NCBI GenBank assembly: GCA_016933965.1
Contig: JAFGTS010000040.1
Location: 1-64,000 of the forward strand
DNA: 64,000 nucleotides
Source of the DNA: Deltaproteobacteria bacterium
Lineage (GTDB): Bacteria > Desulfobacterota > Syntrophia > Syntrophales > UBA2210
Direction of reading: 5' to 3'
The notes beneath the pieces were generated by a model. That model worked only from the letters and a program-made list of their open reading frames with translations, made no database searches and was not told the DNA's origin. Position numbers and translations under genes: made by a program. Positions 9,165 to 31,736 of this stretch are shown here, piece by piece (position 1 is the first letter of the stretch; each line of letters begins with the position of its first letter).

Positions 9165-10766
9165 TCAGAGTTCTTCGGTATTCTTGACGATCTTTATCAA
9201 TCCGTCATCGATCATGGTTTGCCGTGTTGCGTCAAGCCATGATTTGAAATAATGCTCTTCCTTCAGCTTTCGTATGTAGCGGGCAAGCAAGGCCTTTTTG
9301 TTGTTCCAATCCTGATCGTCGAGTTTCCCCGCTTCCTTGAGCTTCACGATGATGCAGTCTTCACCGACGAAGTAGGGCATGTCCGGATAGGGGTTTCCTT
9401 CCCTGAGTTCATAGAGCGCCTGCCCCAGGTCGGGTGAGTACCCGATGCCGGGTATCTCCGGATTCGGTATGAAAAAGCCCGTTTCCGAGAGCGTGAGATG
9501 CTCTTTGCGGGCGAGATCGGCGAGATCGGCACCCTCCCTCAGGTCTTCAAGGAGGGCTTCCCCTTTTTTCATGCAGAGATTTCTGGATTCTTCCGCAGTG
9601 TACTGTTCCGTGATGTCTTTCCTGGCATCAGCAAAATCCGGAATGTATGACGGGCGAACTTGCTCGACGTAGAAAAGGTAGCGTGCTTTCTCATCGGAGA
9701 CGACGGGAAGAAGGTCGCCTTCAGCGGAGGTGAACACGTATTCCGAGAGATCCCGGAGCGCGGCCAGTTCCTCGGGAAAATCCGCGGCGCTCGACACGGG
9801 GATTTCATGAACGTTCCATTTGTGCTCCGCTGCGTAGACCTGAAAATTTTCTTCCTGATATATGATATCGTGAGCCTGTTTTGCTTCATCATAGGCCCGG
9901 TCAAGTCCCTTCATCTGCTTCAGGGTCTCCTTGATATCACCCGTTACTTCTTCGAGAGGGGTCACCACGCCGGCATCATTGGTGAACTGATCCTGATGAA
10001 AGGAATAATAGTCTGCGATCTCCGAGTCCGGTATCTCCACCGTGCGGGCGTAATCATCACCTCTGAACGCAACATATTTCAGAAATATCGTCTCGGGGAC
10101 CCGGAAATCTTCCGCATGAGCATCAAAGTACTCTTTGAGCCTGTCTTCGGAGCGATCAAGGGTGGTGAGAAATTCACTCGCCGGGATGGAGAGGAACTCC
10201 ACGTTTATCTGTTCATTCTGGATCGTGTATATGTCGAAGATCTCCTGTTCGGAAACCTTCACAGATTCCTTTATGAGGCGCTCGAGCTTATTTGTCGTGA
10301 GCATGCGTTTTTGAATGGACTCGAACTCCTCCGGTGTCAAACGCTGATATCTCAGCCGCCGTTCATAGAGCTCCTTGTCGAAGACACCGTTCCTCTGGAA
10401 AACCGGATAGGAATATATGGATTCTCTCAGCTCTGCGTCGCTTACTTCGAGGTTCAGAAGATCGGCCTGGGAGAGAATGATGATCTGGTCGATCAGGTTA
10501 TCCAGCGCACGCTGCTTGAGATTCAGGGACCTGAGGACATCATCGGTCAGGTCGGCGCCATATTGCTCATAATAATAGTCAAGCAGGTTCTGATATTCTT
10601 TCTGATATTCAGCATAGGTGATTCGGTTGTTGTCGATAACGGCTACGGTTTCCGCCTGCTGCCTTCCCCGCATTGAACCGAAATAGAAGATGAAGACGAT
10701 TATGATGATACCGAGGATGACCTTCATGAGCCAGTTCTTGGCATGTTTTCTCATTAAACTGAGCAT
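9165..10766 (-). CDS. SurA/PpiD-type periplasmic chaperone lacking the parvulin domain
   Basis: 533 residues. A basic N-terminus (LSLMRKHAKNWLMK) leads into one membrane helix (VILGIIIIVFIFYFG), so the rest should lie in the periplasm. A SurA_N-type helical domain (about 40-190) follows, with the typical ITYAEYQKEYQNLLDYY and VFDKELYERRLRYQRLTPEEFE. In PpiD a parvulin prolyl isomerase domain normally follows the YYxxHQDQF element. Here that point (about residue 265) goes almost directly to VTGDIKETLKQMKG, so the catalytic domain seems missing, and the protein is shorter than the usual 600-650. The C-terminal half keeps PpiD-like segments (FVGEDCIIVKLKEAG). Probably a membrane-anchored folding chaperone without isomerase activity. 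Divergent from mreB. Confidence 0.78.
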   Translation of the reverse strand: MLSLMRKHAKNWLMKVILGIIIIVFIFYFGSMRGRQQAETVAVIDNNRITYAEYQKEYQNLLDYYYEQYGADLTDDVLRSLNLKQRALDNLIDQIIILSQADLLNLEVSDAELRESIYSYPVFQRNGVFDKELYERRLRYQRLTPEEFESIQKRMLTTNKLERLIKESVKVSEQEIFDIYTIQNEQINVEFLSIPASEFLTTLDRSEDRLKEYFDAHAEDFRVPETIFLKYVAFRGDDYARTVEIPDSEIADYYSFHQDQFTNDAGVVTPLEEVTGDIKETLKQMKGLDRAYDEAKQAHDIIYQEENFQVYAAEHKWNVHEIPVSSAADFPEELAALRDLSEYVFTSAEGDLLPVVSDEKARYLFYVEQVRPSYIPDFADARKDITEQYTAEESRNLCMKKGEALLEDLREGADLADLARKEHLTLSETGFFIPNPEIPGIGYSPDLGQALYELREGNPYPDMPYFVGEDCIIVKLKEAGKLDDQDWNNKKALLARYIRKLKEEHYFKSWLDATRQTMIDDGLIKIVKNTEEL

Positions 10767-12990: not shown

Positions 12991-13499
12991 GATTTTACCT
13001 GCTGGTGCCGCTTTTTTCCCTGCTCCTGGTCGCCGTGCAGACGGCAGTTCTCAATATCTTCTCCTTTGATCTGTTCGCCGTTGAGATATCACTGATTGTC
13101 GTGATATACGCCGGGTTCCGCCTGGAACCCTTCAGGGGTGCCTTCGTCATGATCGTCCTCGGTTGCGCCATGGACGGTATCGCGGGTGTCATGCCCGGTC
13201 TCTATGTCCTTATTTACATGGCCGTGTTTCTGATGACGAAGCTTATTTCCGAGGCGGTCTATTCCGAAGGACCTCTTTTTGTGATAGGGTATTGCATCCT
13301 GTGCGGACTTTTTGAAGGTGCCGCCGTCATTCTCATGTATGATCTTTTTTTCGGGATCAATGTGGCGGGGGAGGCGATTCGCATTTATCTTCCGCAATCA
13401 CTGATGATGGGCTTCATTGCTCCCGTCATCTTCTTCCTGCTTGACCGTTTCAAGGATGTATTAAGTGGCCCGGAAACGCAAAAATTTAACGGACTATGA
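12987..13499 (+). CDS. mreD: Rod shape-determining protein MreD
   Basis: 170 residues starting at a GTG that overlaps the mreC stop by four bases. It is almost entirely hydrophobic with about five membrane segments (LLVPLFSLLLVAVQTAVLNIF, VVIYAGFRLEPFRGAFVMIVLG and others). The GAFVMIVLGCAMDGIAGVMPGLY stretch fits MreD's conserved G-x-x-x-G loops. It assists MreC and PBP2/RodA in side-wall peptidoglycan synthesis. Its 3' end overlaps mrdA by 35 bases. Sequence conservation in MreD is low, so the call rests on size, topology and position. Confidence 0.9.
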   Translation: MRFYLLVPLFSLLLVAVQTAVLNIFSFDLFAVEISLIVVIYAGFRLEPFRGAFVMIVLGCAMDGIAGVMPGLYVLIYMAVFLMTKLISEAVYSEGPLFVIGYCILCGLFEGAAVILMYDLFFGINVAGEAIRIYLPQSLMMGFIAPVIFFLLDRFKDVLSGPETQKFNGL

Positions 13500-15363
13500 C
13501 CAGGCGAGATATCGCTCGAGGTTTACCATCGTCGTTTCGCTGATCTCCTGTGCCGTCTGCGTCATCATGATAAAACTCTGGTATCTCCAGATCGTCAAGG
13601 GCGACGAACTGCGCCGGCGTTCGGAAAACAACCGCATCAGGGTCCAGGAAGTAAAACCGCTGCGTGGGTTGATTACCGACAGAGCGGGACGGATCCTTGT
13701 TGACAATCAGCCTTCTTTTGATGTCTCAATTATCCCGGAAGATGCGAAGGACATGACGGTCATAGCAGCCAAGCTGGATTCGCTCTTTGAAGAGCGGCAG
13801 ATGGAACAGTGCAGGGATGTGGTGTTCGCGCCGGGCAGAAAGCCCTTCGTTCCCGTCAAGATAGACCGGCATATAGAGCGTGAAAAGCTGGCGGTCATTG
13901 AAACAAATGCTATTGACCTCCCCGGGGTGGTGGTCGATGTCATTCCCGTGAGAAAATACAATTATGACGAAATGCTGGCCCACGTCCTCGGCTATGTGGG
14001 GGAGATCAGCACCGGTGAGTTGAAGGAGAATAATTACAGCGGATACAAGCCCGATGATATCGTGGGAAAGGAAGGCATAGAAAAAACACTGGACCGGTAT
14101 CTGAAGGGATACAGCGGGGGAGAACAGATAGAGGTCAATGTGGCGGGTCGAAAACTTCGTGTTCTCGGCAGGGTGGACCCCGTACCGGGGCATAACATCC
14201 AATTGACCATTGATGCGGCGCTTCAGAAAATATGCTGGAACGCATTTGAGGAACCCGCGGGAGCGGCGATCGTCATGGACCCTCGCGACGGATCGATCCT
14301 TGCCATGATGAGCAAACCTTCATTCGACCCCGCACAGTTCAATCGCGGTATTACCGAGGAAAACTGGCGGCAGCTCCTGGAGGACCCCTTGTCACCATTG
14401 CAGAACCGGGCCATATCAGGGCAGTATCCACCGGGTTCGACCTACAAAGTGATCGTTGCCGCCGCGGCCCTGGAAGAACGATTACTATCGGCCGAAAAGC
14501 AGGTTTACTGTTCCGGAAGTTTTACGCTCGGTGACAGGACCTACCGGTGCTGGAAAAAGGAAGGCCATGGACAGGTTGATCTGGAACGGGCCATCATAGA
14601 ATCCTGTGACGTTTACTTTTATACTATCGGTGCTTCCATCGGTGTCGACACGCTTGCCGAGTACGCGGGAAAATTCGGCTTGGGACGGAAGACCGGCATT
14701 TGCCTCCCCGCTGAACGCGAAGGGTTGATCCCCACGAAACAGTGGAAAGTGCAGAAAATGAAAGAACCCTGGCAGAAGGGTGAGACCATTTCGGTTTCCA
14801 TCGGCCAGGGTTTTGTCCTGGTGACGCCGCTGCAGCTTATAAACGCCTACTGCGCCGTAGCCAACGGTGGAACGCTGTTCAAGCCGAGGTTGGTAAACAG
14901 GATTGAGACGGTTACCGGGGAGGTGATCAGCGAATATCCGCCGGAGGCGGTGTCAAAGCTTCCTGCCGATGGCAGGACCCTGCGATTTCTGAAGGATGCC
15001 CTCTGGGGAGTGGTGAATGATGACCGGGGAACGGGGAGGGCCCTTCGACGGGATGAGCGGGACGTCTGCGGAAAAACGGGGACAGCACAGGTGATCGGCA
15101 TGCCGGAGGATGAAGAGGACCTTCGGGAGGAATCGGTTCCTTACAACCAGCGTGATCACGCCCTTTTCGTCTGTTTTGCGCCACGCCAGGACCCTGAGGT
15201 GGCTGTCCTGGTGATCGTGGAACACGGAGGCCACGGTGGGGCCGTGGCTGCTCCCGTTGCCCGTAAGATCATCGACGGCTACTTTGCTCTTAAAAAGATG
15301 CGGAGCGACAAAGGCGTGGGGCAACAGGGAGGTGAAGAGGCCGGCAAAAGGTTGGAATTGTGA
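13465..15363 (+). CDS. mrdA: Penicillin-binding protein 2 (peptidoglycan transpeptidase)
   Basis: 632 residues from the GTG at 13465 within the end of mreD. In order: a cytoplasmic basic tail, one membrane helix (about 20-42), a PBP dimerisation domain (about 60-230, with RGLITDRAGRILVDNQPSFDV) and the transpeptidase domain. Catalytic motifs are STYK with S325 as the acyl-enzyme serine, SCD (the SxN position, near residue 381) and KTGT (537-540). SxD instead of SxN is usual for PBP2. It crosslinks side-wall peptidoglycan together with RodA. A run of imperfect GGATTAC heptamers begins 10 bases after the stop and separates it from rodA. Confidence 0.95.
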   Translation: MARKRKNLTDYDQARYRSRFTIVVSLISCAVCVIMIKLWYLQIVKGDELRRRSENNRIRVQEVKPLRGLITDRAGRILVDNQPSFDVSIIPEDAKDMTVIAAKLDSLFEERQMEQCRDVVFAPGRKPFVPVKIDRHIEREKLAVIETNAIDLPGVVVDVIPVRKYNYDEMLAHVLGYVGEISTGELKENNYSGYKPDDIVGKEGIEKTLDRYLKGYSGGEQIEVNVAGRKLRVLGRVDPVPGHNIQLTIDAALQKICWNAFEEPAGAAIVMDPRDGSILAMMSKPSFDPAQFNRGITEENWRQLLEDPLSPLQNRAISGQYPPGSTYKVIVAAAALEERLLSAEKQVYCSGSFTLGDRTYRCWKKEGHGQVDLERAIIESCDVYFYTIGASIGVDTLAEYAGKFGLGRKTGICLPAEREGLIPTKQWKVQKMKEPWQKGETISVSIGQGFVLVTPLQLINAYCAVANGGTLFKPRLVNRIETVTGEVISEYPPEAVSKLPADGRTLRFLKDALWGVVNDDRGTGRALRRDERDVCGKTGTAQVIGMPEDEEDLREESVPYNQRDHALFVCFAPRQDPEVAVLVIVEHGGHGGAVAAPVARKIIDGYFALKKMRSDKGVGQQGGEEAGKRLEL

Positions 15364-15370
15364 GAGGAGT

Positions 15371-15552
15371 ATGGGATTACGGATTACGGATTATGGATTA
15401 CGGATTATGGATTACGGATTATGGATTACGGATTACGGATTATGGATTATGGATTACGGATTATAGGATTATAGGATTAGGTTTATGAATGGTAAACAAA
15501 CGGTAACACACCATATAACCGTCGGGCATTGTGCCCCTTTGCCCCTTGTTTT
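15371..15552 (+). repeat. Composite tandem-repeat element in the mrdA-rodA gap (short copy)
   Basis: Fifteen imperfect units of GGATTA(C/T): twelve heptamers at 15374-15457, two octamers (GGATTATA) to 15473, and GGATTAG to 15480. Next comes a 25-base block (15479-15503) containing GTTTATGAATGGTAAACAAA. Then CCATATA (15511-15517), and finally three 8-base units (15529-15552: TTGTGCCC, CTTTGCCC, CTTGTTTT) that abut the rodA ATG. The 25-base block is found again, identical and inverted, at 30800-30824, with the same order of flanking parts between lexA and dinB. No Shine-Dalgarno precedes rodA. It is not a CRISPR: units are too short and there are no spacers. Confidence 0.85.
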
Positions 15553-16656
15553 ATGAAAATAGATCGTCGCCTTTTTATAAATTTTGATTGGATCCTCCTG
15601 GTGCTGGTGCTCTCAATCGCCGCGACGGGATTGATGAACCTTTACAGTGCCGGTGCCGGTCTGGCGTCGGCGAAGCCGCTGTACATGAAACAGACGTATT
15701 GGCTCATGATCGGACTGGGTCTGATGATCATCGCTTTCAGCATTGATTATCATTATGTGCTCCACTATGCCTATCTGCTCTATGGGCTGAGTGTCGTTCT
15801 GCTGATGCTCGTTTTCTTTTATGGTCACATTACCCACGGGTCGCAACGCTGGCTGGTCCTGCTGGGATTTTCATTTCAACCTTCGGAGCTGGTGAAGCTC
15901 ACCATGATCATAGCGCTGGCCAGGTTTTACACGGATCGGCAGATCGATGAGGGTTATCCCCTGCGAAACTTCCTGATCCTTTCAGCCATCCTTGTCATTC
16001 CCTTTATCATGATCGTGAAACAGCCGGATCTGGGCACATCGCTTTTTCTGGTGCTGCTCTTTCTCTCGATCGTGCTGTTCATGGGGATCAGCAAACGGGT
16101 GCTGGTCTTTTTTTCCTCGGCCGGTCTGGTACTCGCCCCGCTCTGCTGGTTTTTCCTGAAAGATTATCAGCGCGACCGGATACTGAGTTTTCTGAATCCG
16201 GAACGGGACCCACTGGGATCGGGATATCATATTATCCAGTCGATCATCGCTGTCGGGTCGGGTGGTATCCTGGGAAAGGGCTTTCTCAAGGGTACCCAGA
16301 GCCGGCTCCGCTTTCTGCCCGAACAACAGACAGACTTTGTCTTTTCCGTTTTTGCCGAAGAATGGGGCTTTGCAGGGGTCATCCTCCTCATGGTATTATT
16401 CATGGCACTCATGCTGTGGGGTATCAGGATCGGCAGGAACTCAAAGGACCTGCCGGGAGCCCTGATCGCGTACGGGGTGACGGTGTTCATATTCTGGGGT
16501 TTCTTTATCAATATCGGCATGGTGGTCGGGATATTGCCTGTCGTGGGCATTCCGCTCCCTTTTCTGAGTTATGGCGGGTCTTCGCTGATAGTTCTCATGA
16601 TCGGGATCGGATTGTTGATGAACGTCAGTATGCGGCGGTTCATGCTTCAGCCGTGA
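15553..16656 (+). CDS. rodA: Peptidoglycan glycosyltransferase RodA
   Basis: 367 residues from the ATG at 15553 (MKIDRRLFINFDWILLVLVL, the usual RodA-like start). An in-frame TTG at 15529 would translate the repeat and is unlikely. About ten membrane helices of the SEDS family are present. Signature loops are HGSQRWLVLLGFSFQPSELVK in the middle, then KQPDLGTSLF and PFLSYGGSS near the C-terminus. It polymerises lipid II into glycan strands and partners PBP2. There is no ribosome-binding site upstream, because the composite repeat occupies that position; translation efficiency may therefore be unusual. Last core gene of the elongasome operon. Confidence 0.95.
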   Translation: MKIDRRLFINFDWILLVLVLSIAATGLMNLYSAGAGLASAKPLYMKQTYWLMIGLGLMIIAFSIDYHYVLHYAYLLYGLSVVLLMLVFFYGHITHGSQRWLVLLGFSFQPSELVKLTMIIALARFYTDRQIDEGYPLRNFLILSAILVIPFIMIVKQPDLGTSLFLVLLFLSIVLFMGISKRVLVFFSSAGLVLAPLCWFFLKDYQRDRILSFLNPERDPLGSGYHIIQSIIAVGSGGILGKGFLKGTQSRLRFLPEQQTDFVFSVFAEEWGFAGVILLMVLFMALMLWGIRIGRNSKDLPGALIAYGVTVFIFWGFFINIGMVVGILPVVGIPLPFLSYGGSSLIVLMIGIGLLMNVSMRRFMLQP

Positions 16657-29271: not shown

Positions 29272-30573
29272 TCACACGTTTACATGAAGTATGGGAAGGC
29301 CGAGGTGTTTTCGTCGCGTTTCCCCCGTGAATCGTGTCTGCTGCCGGACCGTGGGAGCTCCCCGTTTGCCCGTTCCGATCAGTTCCAGCAGATGGGACCC
29401 GCCGAGGTGAAGGGTATGCTTTCCGTACTTTTCCGAAAGGACGTCGGTCGCCGCGTACAGGTTTTCTATCTTCTCGATTCTCAGGGGGCTCTCGAAAAGG
29501 GAATACTGGATATGATTATCTTCTATGAGCTCCAGGAGAACGACGCCAGTCGCCCGGTAGAGACGGTTTCCTCGATAGAGCGTTTCAAAAAGTTCCCGGA
29601 GCAACCGTGAAAGTTCGAGGGGACGGGCCGAGGGACGATTCAGCTTTGCCTCGGCGCAGCTCGTGGAAAAATTGTTTTCCTTCATCACCGCGGCGATCTT
29701 GACCGGCGCCAGGCGGTACCGGCGGGCCTTGATGCAGGCCGACTCAAGGTTTCTCATAAGGTGCGCGAAAAGGTAATCGGCATCTTCCGTCGGCGGCGCG
29801 AAGGTCTTCATCTTGCTGATCGATGCGTAGGAGGTTTTTTCCGCCGCCTCGACGGGATAGACCGGCTCCCCGCGCAGTTCCCGCCATATCTCCCGGGTCG
29901 GCTTGGTGAAACGCCTTCTCATCAGTTCTTCGGGGAGCCTGGCGAAATCGAGGGCTGTTCGAACGCCCAGCTTCCGCAGGTGCTGGGTCGTGGCGTGGCC
30001 GACCCCCCATACGGTGTCCACGGGAACCTTCTCCAGGTATGAAGCGATGCTCCTGCCCGGGATGACCGTGAAACCGTCGGGCTTCCGGTATTTGGAGGCG
30101 ATCTTGGCCAGCACTTTCGTGGTGCTCAGCCCCGCCGTTACACTGATGCCCAGTTCCCGCCGGATTTCATTCTTCACGGCCAGGGCGATACCTTCGTAGG
30201 ATGTGTGAAAGACCCGCCGCAGGCCGGTAATGTCGGCGAAGGCTTCGTCGATGGAGTATTCCTCGACTTGGGGAGTGAACCGGCGGATGATGTTGAACAT
30301 TCCCTTTGAAAAGAGACTGTAGGTTTCGTAATCGGAGGGGAGAATGACCAGTTCAGGGCAGAGTTTTCTGGCCTGGTAGAGGGGAACGCCCCGCTTGACG
30401 CCCCGGTCCTTCGCCACGTAGTTGGCACAGGCCACGATCCCCCGCTCGCCGCCCGTAATGAGCGGTTTCCCCCGCAACTCGGGGTGGATGGCCTCCTCGC
30501 AGGAGGTGAAAAAGGCATCCCCGTCACAGTGAAGAACGGCACGGGGCCAGGAATGAAGACCGAAGATGTTCAT
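29272..30573 (-). CDS. dinB: Y-family translesion DNA polymerase (DinB/UmuC type)
   Basis: 433 residues from the ATG at 30573. Catalytic residues: HCDGDAFFTSCEE (first Asp and steric-gate aromatic) and YSIDEAFADI (Asp-Glu). Then VTAGLSTTKVLAKIASKYRKPDGFTVI, a helix-hairpin-helix (VDTVWGVGHATTQHLRKLGV) and a little-finger domain with an extended C-terminal tail (about 350-433). It copies damaged templates. It lies downstream of lexA in the same direction, so it is probably SOS-controlled from the lexA operator. There is no Shine-Dalgarno; the ATG directly follows a CTTTGCCA octamer array. The frame can extend to 30621 through those repeats, but this is probably not translated. Whether it is Pol IV or UmuC-like is not certain. 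Confidence 0.88.
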   Translation of the reverse strand: MNIFGLHSWPRAVLHCDGDAFFTSCEEAIHPELRGKPLITGGERGIVACANYVAKDRGVKRGVPLYQARKLCPELVILPSDYETYSLFSKGMFNIIRRFTPQVEEYSIDEAFADITGLRRVFHTSYEGIALAVKNEIRRELGISVTAGLSTTKVLAKIASKYRKPDGFTVIPGRSIASYLEKVPVDTVWGVGHATTQHLRKLGVRTALDFARLPEELMRRRFTKPTREIWRELRGEPVYPVEAAEKTSYASISKMKTFAPPTEDADYLFAHLMRNLESACIKARRYRLAPVKIAAVMKENNFSTSCAEAKLNRPSARPLELSRLLRELFETLYRGNRLYRATGVVLLELIEDNHIQYSLFESPLRIEKIENLYAATDVLSEKYGKHTLHLGGSHLLELIGTGKRGAPTVRQQTRFTGETRRKHLGLPILHVNV

Positions 30574-30886
30574 AATAAAAAAGTGGCAAAGCGACAAAGT
30601 GGCAAAGTGGCAAAGGGGCAAAGCGACAAAGGGGCCAAGGGTCCAAGCGAAAACCCGGGAGTGGGCAAGAATTTGAATGTATTCTTATACATCATGTCCA
30701 TTATGCGTGGATAGGAGCACCATAATGTAAAAAATACCCTCGAACCCTTGAACCCTTGAACCCTTGAACCCTTTTCCTTAACTATATGGGAGAAGAACCC
30801 CGTTTGTTTACCATTCATAAACCTGATCCCATAATCCCTAATCCGTAATCCGTAATCCCTAATCCGTAATCCCCTTAATCCATAGC
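30574..30886 (-). repeat. Composite tandem-repeat element in the lexA-dinB gap (long copy)
   Basis: Read on the minus strand from the lexA stop, parts occur in this order. About eight imperfect GGATTAC heptamers come first (30826-30881). Then the 25-base block shared with 15479-15503, containing the reverse of TTTGTTTACCATTCATAAAC (30803-30822), followed by CCATATA (30783-30789). About four GGGTTCAA octamers follow (roughly 30737-30772), then non-repeat sequence, then about seven CTTTGCC(A/C) octamers (roughly 30576-30640) that end at the dinB ATG. The order of parts matches the mrdA-rodA gap, where the GGGTTCAA array is absent. Because octamer number is not a multiple of three, a change in copy number shifts any frame read through it. 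Confidence 0.85.
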
Positions 30887-31471
30887 TTAATACTTCCGTA
30901 TCACCCCGGTGATGACGCCGCCGATCGTGAGCTCCGATTTCGGTTTGATGGGCGGGTAACGGGGGTTCGCCGCCTCGAGGACGACGGTGCCCCGCCGCTT
31001 TCTGAAGTATTTCATCGTCCATTCTCCGTCCACCTCGGCGATGATGACGTCACCGTTTCGCGGTTCCCGGCCCTTTTCCACGATGACGATATCTCCCGGG
31101 CGGATGCCTTCGTCGATCATCGAGTCTCCGGTGACCTTCAGCAGGAACGAGGAATCAGGGCGGGTGATCAGGTAATCGTCGAGGGAGATCGTGTCCCGCA
31201 ATTCCTCCTCGGCGGGTGAGGGAAACCCGGCGGTGACTTCCCCCACCAGAGGGATCGGAAGGGCGCGCTGGGCCGGCCTCAGGAATCCCCGGTTATCCTT
31301 TTCAAGCGTACCGGCGGCGACGAGTTTTCTGACCCAGAAATCGACGACGCTCTTCGAACGTACCCCGAGAAGGCGCATCATTTCGGAATAGGTGGGCATC
31401 CGCCGGTATTCACGAAAGAACCCGGTGATCCGTTTTTCCACGCTTTCCCTGGTTCGTTTTCTTTTTTCCAT
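30887..31471 (-). CDS. lexA: LexA repressor
   Basis: 194 residues from the ATG at 31471. A winged-helix N-domain (about 5-60; MPTYSEMMRLLGVRSKSVVDFWVRKL as the recognition part) is followed by an S24 autoprotease domain. The cleavage site is A81-G82, the catalytic serine S117 (TGDSMIDEG) and the lysine K154 (WTMKYF), so self-cleavage should work. It represses DNA-damage genes until RecA filaments trigger cleavage. A GAAC-N4-GTTC operator lies in its own promoter. A second ATG at 31480 would add three residues; the long frame to 31657 crosses the operator and is rejected. dinB follows after the repeat element; pgpA diverges. Confidence 0.93.
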   Translation of the reverse strand: MEKRKRTRESVEKRITGFFREYRRMPTYSEMMRLLGVRSKSVVDFWVRKLVAAGTLEKDNRGFLRPAQRALPIPLVGEVTAGFPSPAEEELRDTISLDDYLITRPDSSFLLKVTGDSMIDEGIRPGDIVIVEKGREPRNGDVIIAEVDGEWTMKYFRKRRGTVVLEAANPRYPPIKPKSELTIGGVITGVIRKY

Positions 31472-31478
31472 GGATTCC

Positions 31479-31507
31479 ATATAATAGAACAATCGTTCTA
31501 TTGTCAA
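31479..31507 (-). promoter_or_regulatory. lexA promoter with embedded LexA box
   Basis: Minus-strand TTGACA (31507-31502), a 17-base spacer and TTATAT (31484-31479). The spacer is nearly filled by a perfect palindrome at 31483-31502: GAAC (31487-31490), four bases, GTTC (31495-31498), extended by AATA/TATT. Repressor binding would cover both promoter elements. The predicted transcription start (31471-31473) is at the lexA ATG, so the mRNA would have almost no leader. Confidence 0.85.
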
Positions 31508-31736
31508 GCGGTATTTTACGGTGGGAGCCGCCGGGCCGTCTTCATGCCGGGGTTCTGTAAAGTTAATAAATACGGATAGATGCGGCTGATTTGTGCCGGG
31601 AGTGATCCGCCGTTGAAGGGGCTTTACATTACACCGTTCTTGTACTATATAGGGCACAGGTAACGGAACGCAGCGATGTGAAAGGTCCCGGTTTTCACGA
31701 ATGCTGCAGCAACCCGGCTGCCACCGGTTGACAAGA

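Follow-up and report, generated by a model that had tools for sequence, protein, structure and literature searches.

For decades, heptamer arrays have been recorded in the gaps of bacterial genomes, but no account of their origin has won acceptance. The STRR repeats of Calothrix and other cyanobacteria, reportedly described by Mazel in 1990, are said to be heptanucleotide repeats of several words that are intergenic, tandem and dispersed; the report on Calothrix is among the references of PMC4692102. The repeats analysed here are alike in all of this, but they use different words, occur in another phylum, and have octamers and unique modules attached to them. Heptamer repeats of the types GGGAATC and GGGGA(C/T)T, whose function is unknown, are found in Xanthomonas and Nostoc, and G-rich GGGNATC repeats were reported up to 50 nt upstream of start codons on the non-coding strand (Rehm et al. 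2015, PMC4692102). Direct TAACTGA repeats of the Beggiatoaceae occupy more than 100 sites, mainly just upstream of start codons (MacGregor 2015, PMC4679880).

STRR and GGGNATC-type repeats have units of 6-9 nt, most often 7, arranged head to tail. The arrays in the present genome agree with this, their periods being almost only 7 and 8 nt, and they are likewise dispersed and over-represented in non-coding DNA. G-rich repeats on the non-coding strand are not enriched ahead of starts, and we thus regard the arrays as a variant within the general class and not as the GGGNATC family itself. The safest reading is that they represent the known class of intergenic heptamer repeats in a richer form, with octamers and attached modules, and in a lineage-specific expansion. 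In contrast to the Xanthomonas and Nostoc heptamers (PMC4692102), several families of 7 and 8 nt coexist here and combine within single gaps, the main word has G-runs of only two G, antisense arrays beside starts are depleted instead of enriched, and related genera lack the family. The TAACTGA repeats (PMC4679880) are similar in that one heptamer is present at many, mostly intergenic sites with a patchy distribution over distant phyla, but the heptamers described here are located mainly after stop codons. Among the papers searched, none contains GGATTACGGATTAC, and none that describes octamer repeats in this group came to light.

Two gaps in the window, i.e. the whole stretch of 64,000 nucleotides that was analysed, carry such repeats. 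Their features are listed in Table 1.

Table 1. Coordinates of genes, repeats and modules in and around the two repeat-bearing gaps of the window
Feature	Position	Strand	Remarks
mrdA (penicillin-binding protein 2)	13465..15363	+	NCBIfam TIGR03423
mrdA-rodA gap	15364-15552	+	189 nt
Small ORF, MGLRITDYG...*, 31 codons	15371..15466	+	AGAGGAGT-ATG just past mrdA stop; frame runs through heptamers
GGATTAY heptamer array, mrdA-rodA gap	15374..15478	+	~13 copies; heptamers at 15374-15463
25-base block AGGTTTATGAATGGTAAACAAACGG, copy 1	15479..15503	+	mrdA-rodA gap
Two C-rich octamers TGCCCCTT	15532..15547	+	end 5 nt before rodA ATG (15553)
rodA	15553..16656	+	NCBIfam TIGR02210; start matches relatives
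dinB-like Y-family DNA polymerase (polymerase IV)	29272..30573	-	NCBIfam; start matches relatives
lexA-dinB gap	30574-30886	-	313 nt
CTTTGYCR octamer array, ~7 copies	30580..30639	-	ends 7 nt before dinB ATG (30573)
T-element, ~172-base dispersed unit	30629..30800	-	homologous to gap on contig C44 (L130:1428-1598)
GGGTTCAA octamer array	30737..30773	-	inside T-element
25-base block AGGTTTATGAATGGTAAACAAACGG, copy 2	30800..30824	-	lexA-dinB gap
GGATTAN heptamer array, lexA-dinB gap	30825..30880	-	perfect core 30832-30872; 14 nt past lexA stop
lexA	30887..31657	-	NCBIfam; true start probably further in, ~31480

According to the first-pass annotation, both gaps contain GGATTAC heptamers right after the upstream stop codon, an identical 25-base block, CCATATA, and octamers of the CTTTGCC type that end at the ATG of the next gene. 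The heptamers, whose arrays begin 10-14 nt past the stop (10 nt in the case of mrdA), and the 25-base block, present on opposite strands, are as described, and together they form a single homologous block of 86 columns (local alignment score 124; best of 200 shuffles 26). Within the 25-base block, GTTTATGAATGGTAAAC is an inverted repeat of GTTTA and TAAAC; the 3' part of the mrdA-rodA array decays into GGATTATA units. CCATATA had to be dropped from the list of shared parts. It is the sole piece that aligns beyond the 25-mer, it lies at the 95th percentile of shuffles and is thus a chance match, and its homology was rejected also on the ground that the copy in the dinB gap belongs to the lead-in TTCTTCTCCCATATAGTT of the T-element. 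C-rich octamers do occur near both starts, in different copy numbers (2 before rodA vs. about 7 before dinB), but they end 5-7 nt short of the ATG. The additional GGGTTCAA octamer array that had been noted in the dinB gap was found again. The AGAGGAGT-ATG of the small ORF behind mrdA is possibly a relic of a former rodA start or ribosome site.

The 25-base block had been suggested as a probe for further family members in the genome and in close relatives. Its only two copies in this genome are those in the two gaps; there is none elsewhere in the genome even when 2 mismatches are allowed on a 17-base core, and none in the 394 other genomes of the phylum at up to 3 mismatches. The 25-mer was thus rejected as a family signature. 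An Rfam match indicating a structured RNA was not found within the window. The heptamer and octamer families are dispersed in this genome and nearly absent from its relatives. Triplets of the heptamer gave 155 genome matches (4 for a control with reversed pattern), triplets of the octamer 111 (control: 0) and pairs of GGGTTCAA 16 (control: 0). When 395 genomes of the phylum were searched for exact heptamer triplets, 121 were found in this genome, 10 in the next one and none in nearly all others, and 40 closer relatives had at most 4 each. Octamer triplets were detected in 2 of 41 genomes, this one and one relative, where they occur as the CTTTGCCT variant. The relative G004 has one long CTTTGCCT octamer array at a contig start (C160:50-126), octamers being otherwise absent from the family.

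For the gene context, 0.78 Mb of the 55-contig assembly, in forty stretches no longer than 20 kb that were picked for holding arrays, were combined with the window to approximately 0.85 Mb. Approximate gene calls from a simple codon model yielded 444 gaps with a minimum length of 30 nt. Heptamer arrays in gaps (38) are located between co-directional genes in 23 cases, convergent genes in 8 and divergent genes in 7, and of about 85 arrays all but 4 are clear of called genes. The proposal of a small dispersed repeat family that inserts between co-transcribed genes can therefore be kept as far as dispersal and insertion between adjacent genes are concerned, but not the restriction to co-transcribed genes, since convergent and divergent gaps are used as well. 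At the mrdA|rodA junction, the array is missing in 18 of 18 relatives of the family, in which the genes overlap or are at most about 35 nt apart, as compared to 189 nt here. Most relatives examined have an overlap or about 10 nt between hemD and ahbC, and the few gaps of up to about 150 nt are free of arrays, while the gap of 103 nt in this genome is nearly all repeat-derived. The lpxB|msbA distance ranges from overlap to about 60 nt in relatives with msbA as a neighbour (102 nt here), and lexA and dinB are separated by about 95 nt in two syntenic relatives (313 nt here). As the arrays are missing at these junctions in every comparable relative, they are recent insertions, and where such young inserts lie between the stop and start codons of essential operons, they are natural experiments on junction spacing. 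Upstream of dinB, relatives of another genus (L259, L260, L261) have a palindromic AGAACGATTGTTCT-like site, possibly a LexA box, in the place where the window genome has its repeat composite. The TAG stop codons of hemD (L295 around 3019) and of the gene upstream of a ccsA-like gene (ends L133:1106; region L133:1090-1148) are located inside a GGATTAG word, which means that the array touches or has replaced the gene end.

Within 50 nt after stop codons, heptamers on the sense strand are more frequent than expected (14 vs. 6.5, P=0.0015). On the non-coding strand up to 50 nt upstream of starts, only 1 GGATTAN array was found where 4.9 were expected for at least 3 units, and 1 where 8.6 were expected for at least 2 units. 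These distributions bear on the suggestion that copy number works as a rheostat, the octamers before the ATG and the heptamers jointly setting how the next gene is translated or spaced. The octamers of both window gaps end 5-7 nt before an ATG without Shine-Dalgarno sequence, and a translational role has been proposed for the likewise placed TAACTGA repeats of the Beggiatoaceae (PMC4679880). Moreover, CAGGCACT octamers on the sense strand are enriched up to 50 nt upstream of starts (6 vs. 1.2 expected). CTTTGYCR octamers, however, show no enrichment within 50 nt of start codons on the sense strand (5 cases vs. 3.6 expected), and heptamers cluster at stops. It is correct that both rodA and dinB lack a Shine-Dalgarno sequence, yet an SD-like motif is missing from 42% of the sampled genes, and its frequency is similar in genes with words near the start (5/11) and without them (339/584). 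Arrays also occur in convergent gaps, which have no start codon downstream. Given the arrays in convergent and divergent gaps and the many genes that lack a Shine-Dalgarno sequence, a role in translation is unsupported beyond the octamer position in the two gaps and the minor CAGGCACT family, and the supposed effect of octamer number is decidedly unlikely. Phase variation via a RodA fusion was dismissed, as stop codons separate the array from rodA in two frames, that of the array and that of rodA.

Several gaps share modules in addition to tandem words. The T-element consists of a head with GGGTTCTTCTCCC, the GGGTTCAA octamers, a core of the form CATTATG-GTGCTCCTATCCACG-CATAATG and inverted octamers at the end. 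Over about 172 bases it is homologous to the gap on contig C44 (alignment score 184; best shuffle 24), and a second 25-mer of the dinB gap (30703-30727), detected among 18-mers shared between gaps and common to contig C44, is located within this homology. The head is present in 6 gaps, where it precedes GGGTTCAA-type octamers. Another dispersed sequence, CAAAAACGTTTCAATGGCCGCTTCAAAAGAGATT, is about 31-54 nt long, occurs in 9 gaps (L133:7230-7283, L102:18534 and L101:19084 among them) and is unrelated to the tandem words. Many arrays are adjoined by hairpin units of the type CCTCCCTTT..AAAGGGAGG-GGGAGGGATTT followed by CCCCCTTT..AAAGGGGG (L118:4162-4304, L112:1511, L114 near 9833-9950). In our own reading, the CCTCCCTTT-AAAGGGAGG-GGGAGGGATTT units share the pyrimidine-purine-mirror layout of intrastrand triplex motifs (Holder et al. 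2015, PMC4666352), but they are separate modules beside arrays, and none is found in the two window gaps.

These modules would fit a MITE- or REP-like family of non-autonomous transposable elements, with the 7/8-mer words as terminal inverted repeats. The T-element is a real dispersed unit whose two ends carry octamers in inverted orientation, in outline like terminal inverted repeats, and the CCTCCCTTT...AAAGGGAGG-type hairpin units recur beside arrays. Most arrays, however, lack a common flanking body. The arrays are direct repeats, not palindromic units as in REP/BIME (20-40 bp unit with RAYT transposase). Neither a target-site duplication nor a transposase was established; with the nearest relative at about 70% RodA identity, exact junctions are unreadable. 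This origin appears fairly doubtful to us.

On balance we favour the explanation that both gaps contain lineage-specific intergenic tandem repeats of 7 and 8 nt that are mostly neutral and spread by copying between gaps. The shared modules make the gaps mosaics, and it is from them that we infer copying as the mechanism of spreading. Repeat segments with short unique modules such as the 25-mer and the 172-base T-element would be copied from gap to gap, and copies would settle at stop-to-start junctions, where insertion should harm least. The copy number of an array would then shift by slippage or unequal exchange. At either edge of a gap, words would enter in such a way that their G-rich strand reads inward, which would result in composites of G-words and C-words, and long hairpins could form from some of these. 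The majority of copies are probably near-neutral, with any effect on mRNA structure or translation being a by-product. A transposase, a template RNA or a copying intermediate was not identified for this model.

Two regularities stand out in the arrays: their periods are almost only 7 or 8 nt, and their G-words nearly always point inward whatever the direction of the genes. In the gaps of the sample, period 7 accounts for 28.7 exact runs of at least 3 copies per 100 kb and period 8 for 11.5; all remaining periods up to 24 stay at or below 1.2 per 100 kb of gap. Shuffled gaps contain no exact runs of at least 3 copies, and coding DNA none of period 7 or 8. The word families comprise GGATTAY, CTTTGYCR, GGGTTCAA, CAGGCACT, CGAATCC and CGGGGTA. 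At 80 loci of other phyla that were found via the heptamer, 81 of about 105 arrays had period 7 after masking of the heptamer, with 52 different words; these loci were chosen for a period-7 array, so the figure is a description and not an unbiased survey.

To determine polarity, words were taken in their G-rich orientation, and gaps with at least 2 G-words and at least 2 C-words whose centres are more than 25 nt apart were counted. Of the 58 gaps, 55 have their G-words to the left of their C-words (p=2e-13), the ratios being 18:1 for ++, 13:0 for --, 12:0 for +- and 12:2 for -+ gaps. The orientation of the minor words K and V was assigned after their positions had been seen; without these two words the ratio is 30:0, and with GGATTA and the purine octamer alone it is 21:0. 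A word-free test that relates the GC skew of arrays to their position gave 12:1 gaps in this genome (Spearman -0.39, p=2e-5), and under this test the polarity recurs in loci of other phyla (24:7, p=0.003). A simple difference in GC skew between gap halves is not visible in the bulk composition of co-directional and divergent array gaps; the polarity emerges only when words or arrays are compared. Because it holds in divergent gaps too, it would seem to be a property of the DNA gap and not of one transcript. GGGNATC heptamers were described as lying nearer the 5' neighbouring ORF whatever its orientation (Rehm et al., PMC4692102), and the present data extend this placement, which now covers several words as well as 8-mers and is complemented by C-words on the right-hand side.

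Any mechanism must account for both period and polarity, and simple slippage accounts for neither. It fails on lengths restricted to 7 and 8, on the occurrence of the same word at dozens of unrelated sites, and on the strict polarity. This polarity is also not predicted by the neutral model, and it counts against the explanation of copying between gaps that we favour. Terminal inverted repeats of a MITE- or REP-like family would give rise to polarity, but several unrelated words obey the same one, and the left and right words of a gap are often from different families.

The polarity could also reflect selection for structure. According to this explanation, inward G-words and C-words fold into hairpins (or two-layer G-quadruplexes), which would be selected for keeping mRNA ends stable or for insulating transcription. 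The median folding z-score against shuffles is -2.24 in gaps with both kinds of words (n=38), 0.19 with one kind (n=19) and -0.71 without words (n=60), and the good folding of the first group could thus be a selected structure, against the near-neutrality that we infer. G-words are located after stops on the sense strand, as reported for the GGGAATC repeats in Xanthomonas and Nostoc (PMC4692102). Arrays have at least 4 GG tracts, which, judged from the bases, should be enough only for a two-layer G-quadruplex. Still, the two gaps studied fold ordinarily (z of +1.99 and -1.09), the polarity persists in divergent gaps without read-through (12:2), and pairing alone would permit C-words on the left and G-words on the right equally often. 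The left and right words that would have to pair are often from different families, and under a strict tandem criterion only one within-family inverted pair was found in this genome, strict same-word hairpins thus being rare here. A selected structure is in our opinion rather improbable. A terminator role was ruled out on the ground that arrays occur in divergent gaps too.

Both regularities would follow from templated repeat addition at double-strand breaks. An enzyme with an internal template, analogous to telomerase or reverse transcriptase-like, would add G-rich words of 7 or 8 nt to both 3' ends before joining. If true, this would yield scars with G-words left and C-words right, a fixed word length, one and the same word at unrelated sites that have no flanks in common, and intergenic arrays that are blind to gene orientation. 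A non-exhaustive search for reverse transcriptases in about 30% of the genome yielded ten proteins with a [YF]xDD motif, all of which are other enzymes. As this search, which covered part of the genome, brought no enzyme of the required kind to light, we consider the mechanism highly improbable.

Octamer arrays are also located at contig ends. Contigs C19 (1-95) and C39 (1-45) of this genome (G000) start inside CTTTGCCA octamer arrays. The repeat has thus probably broken the assembly, and longer arrays may exist.
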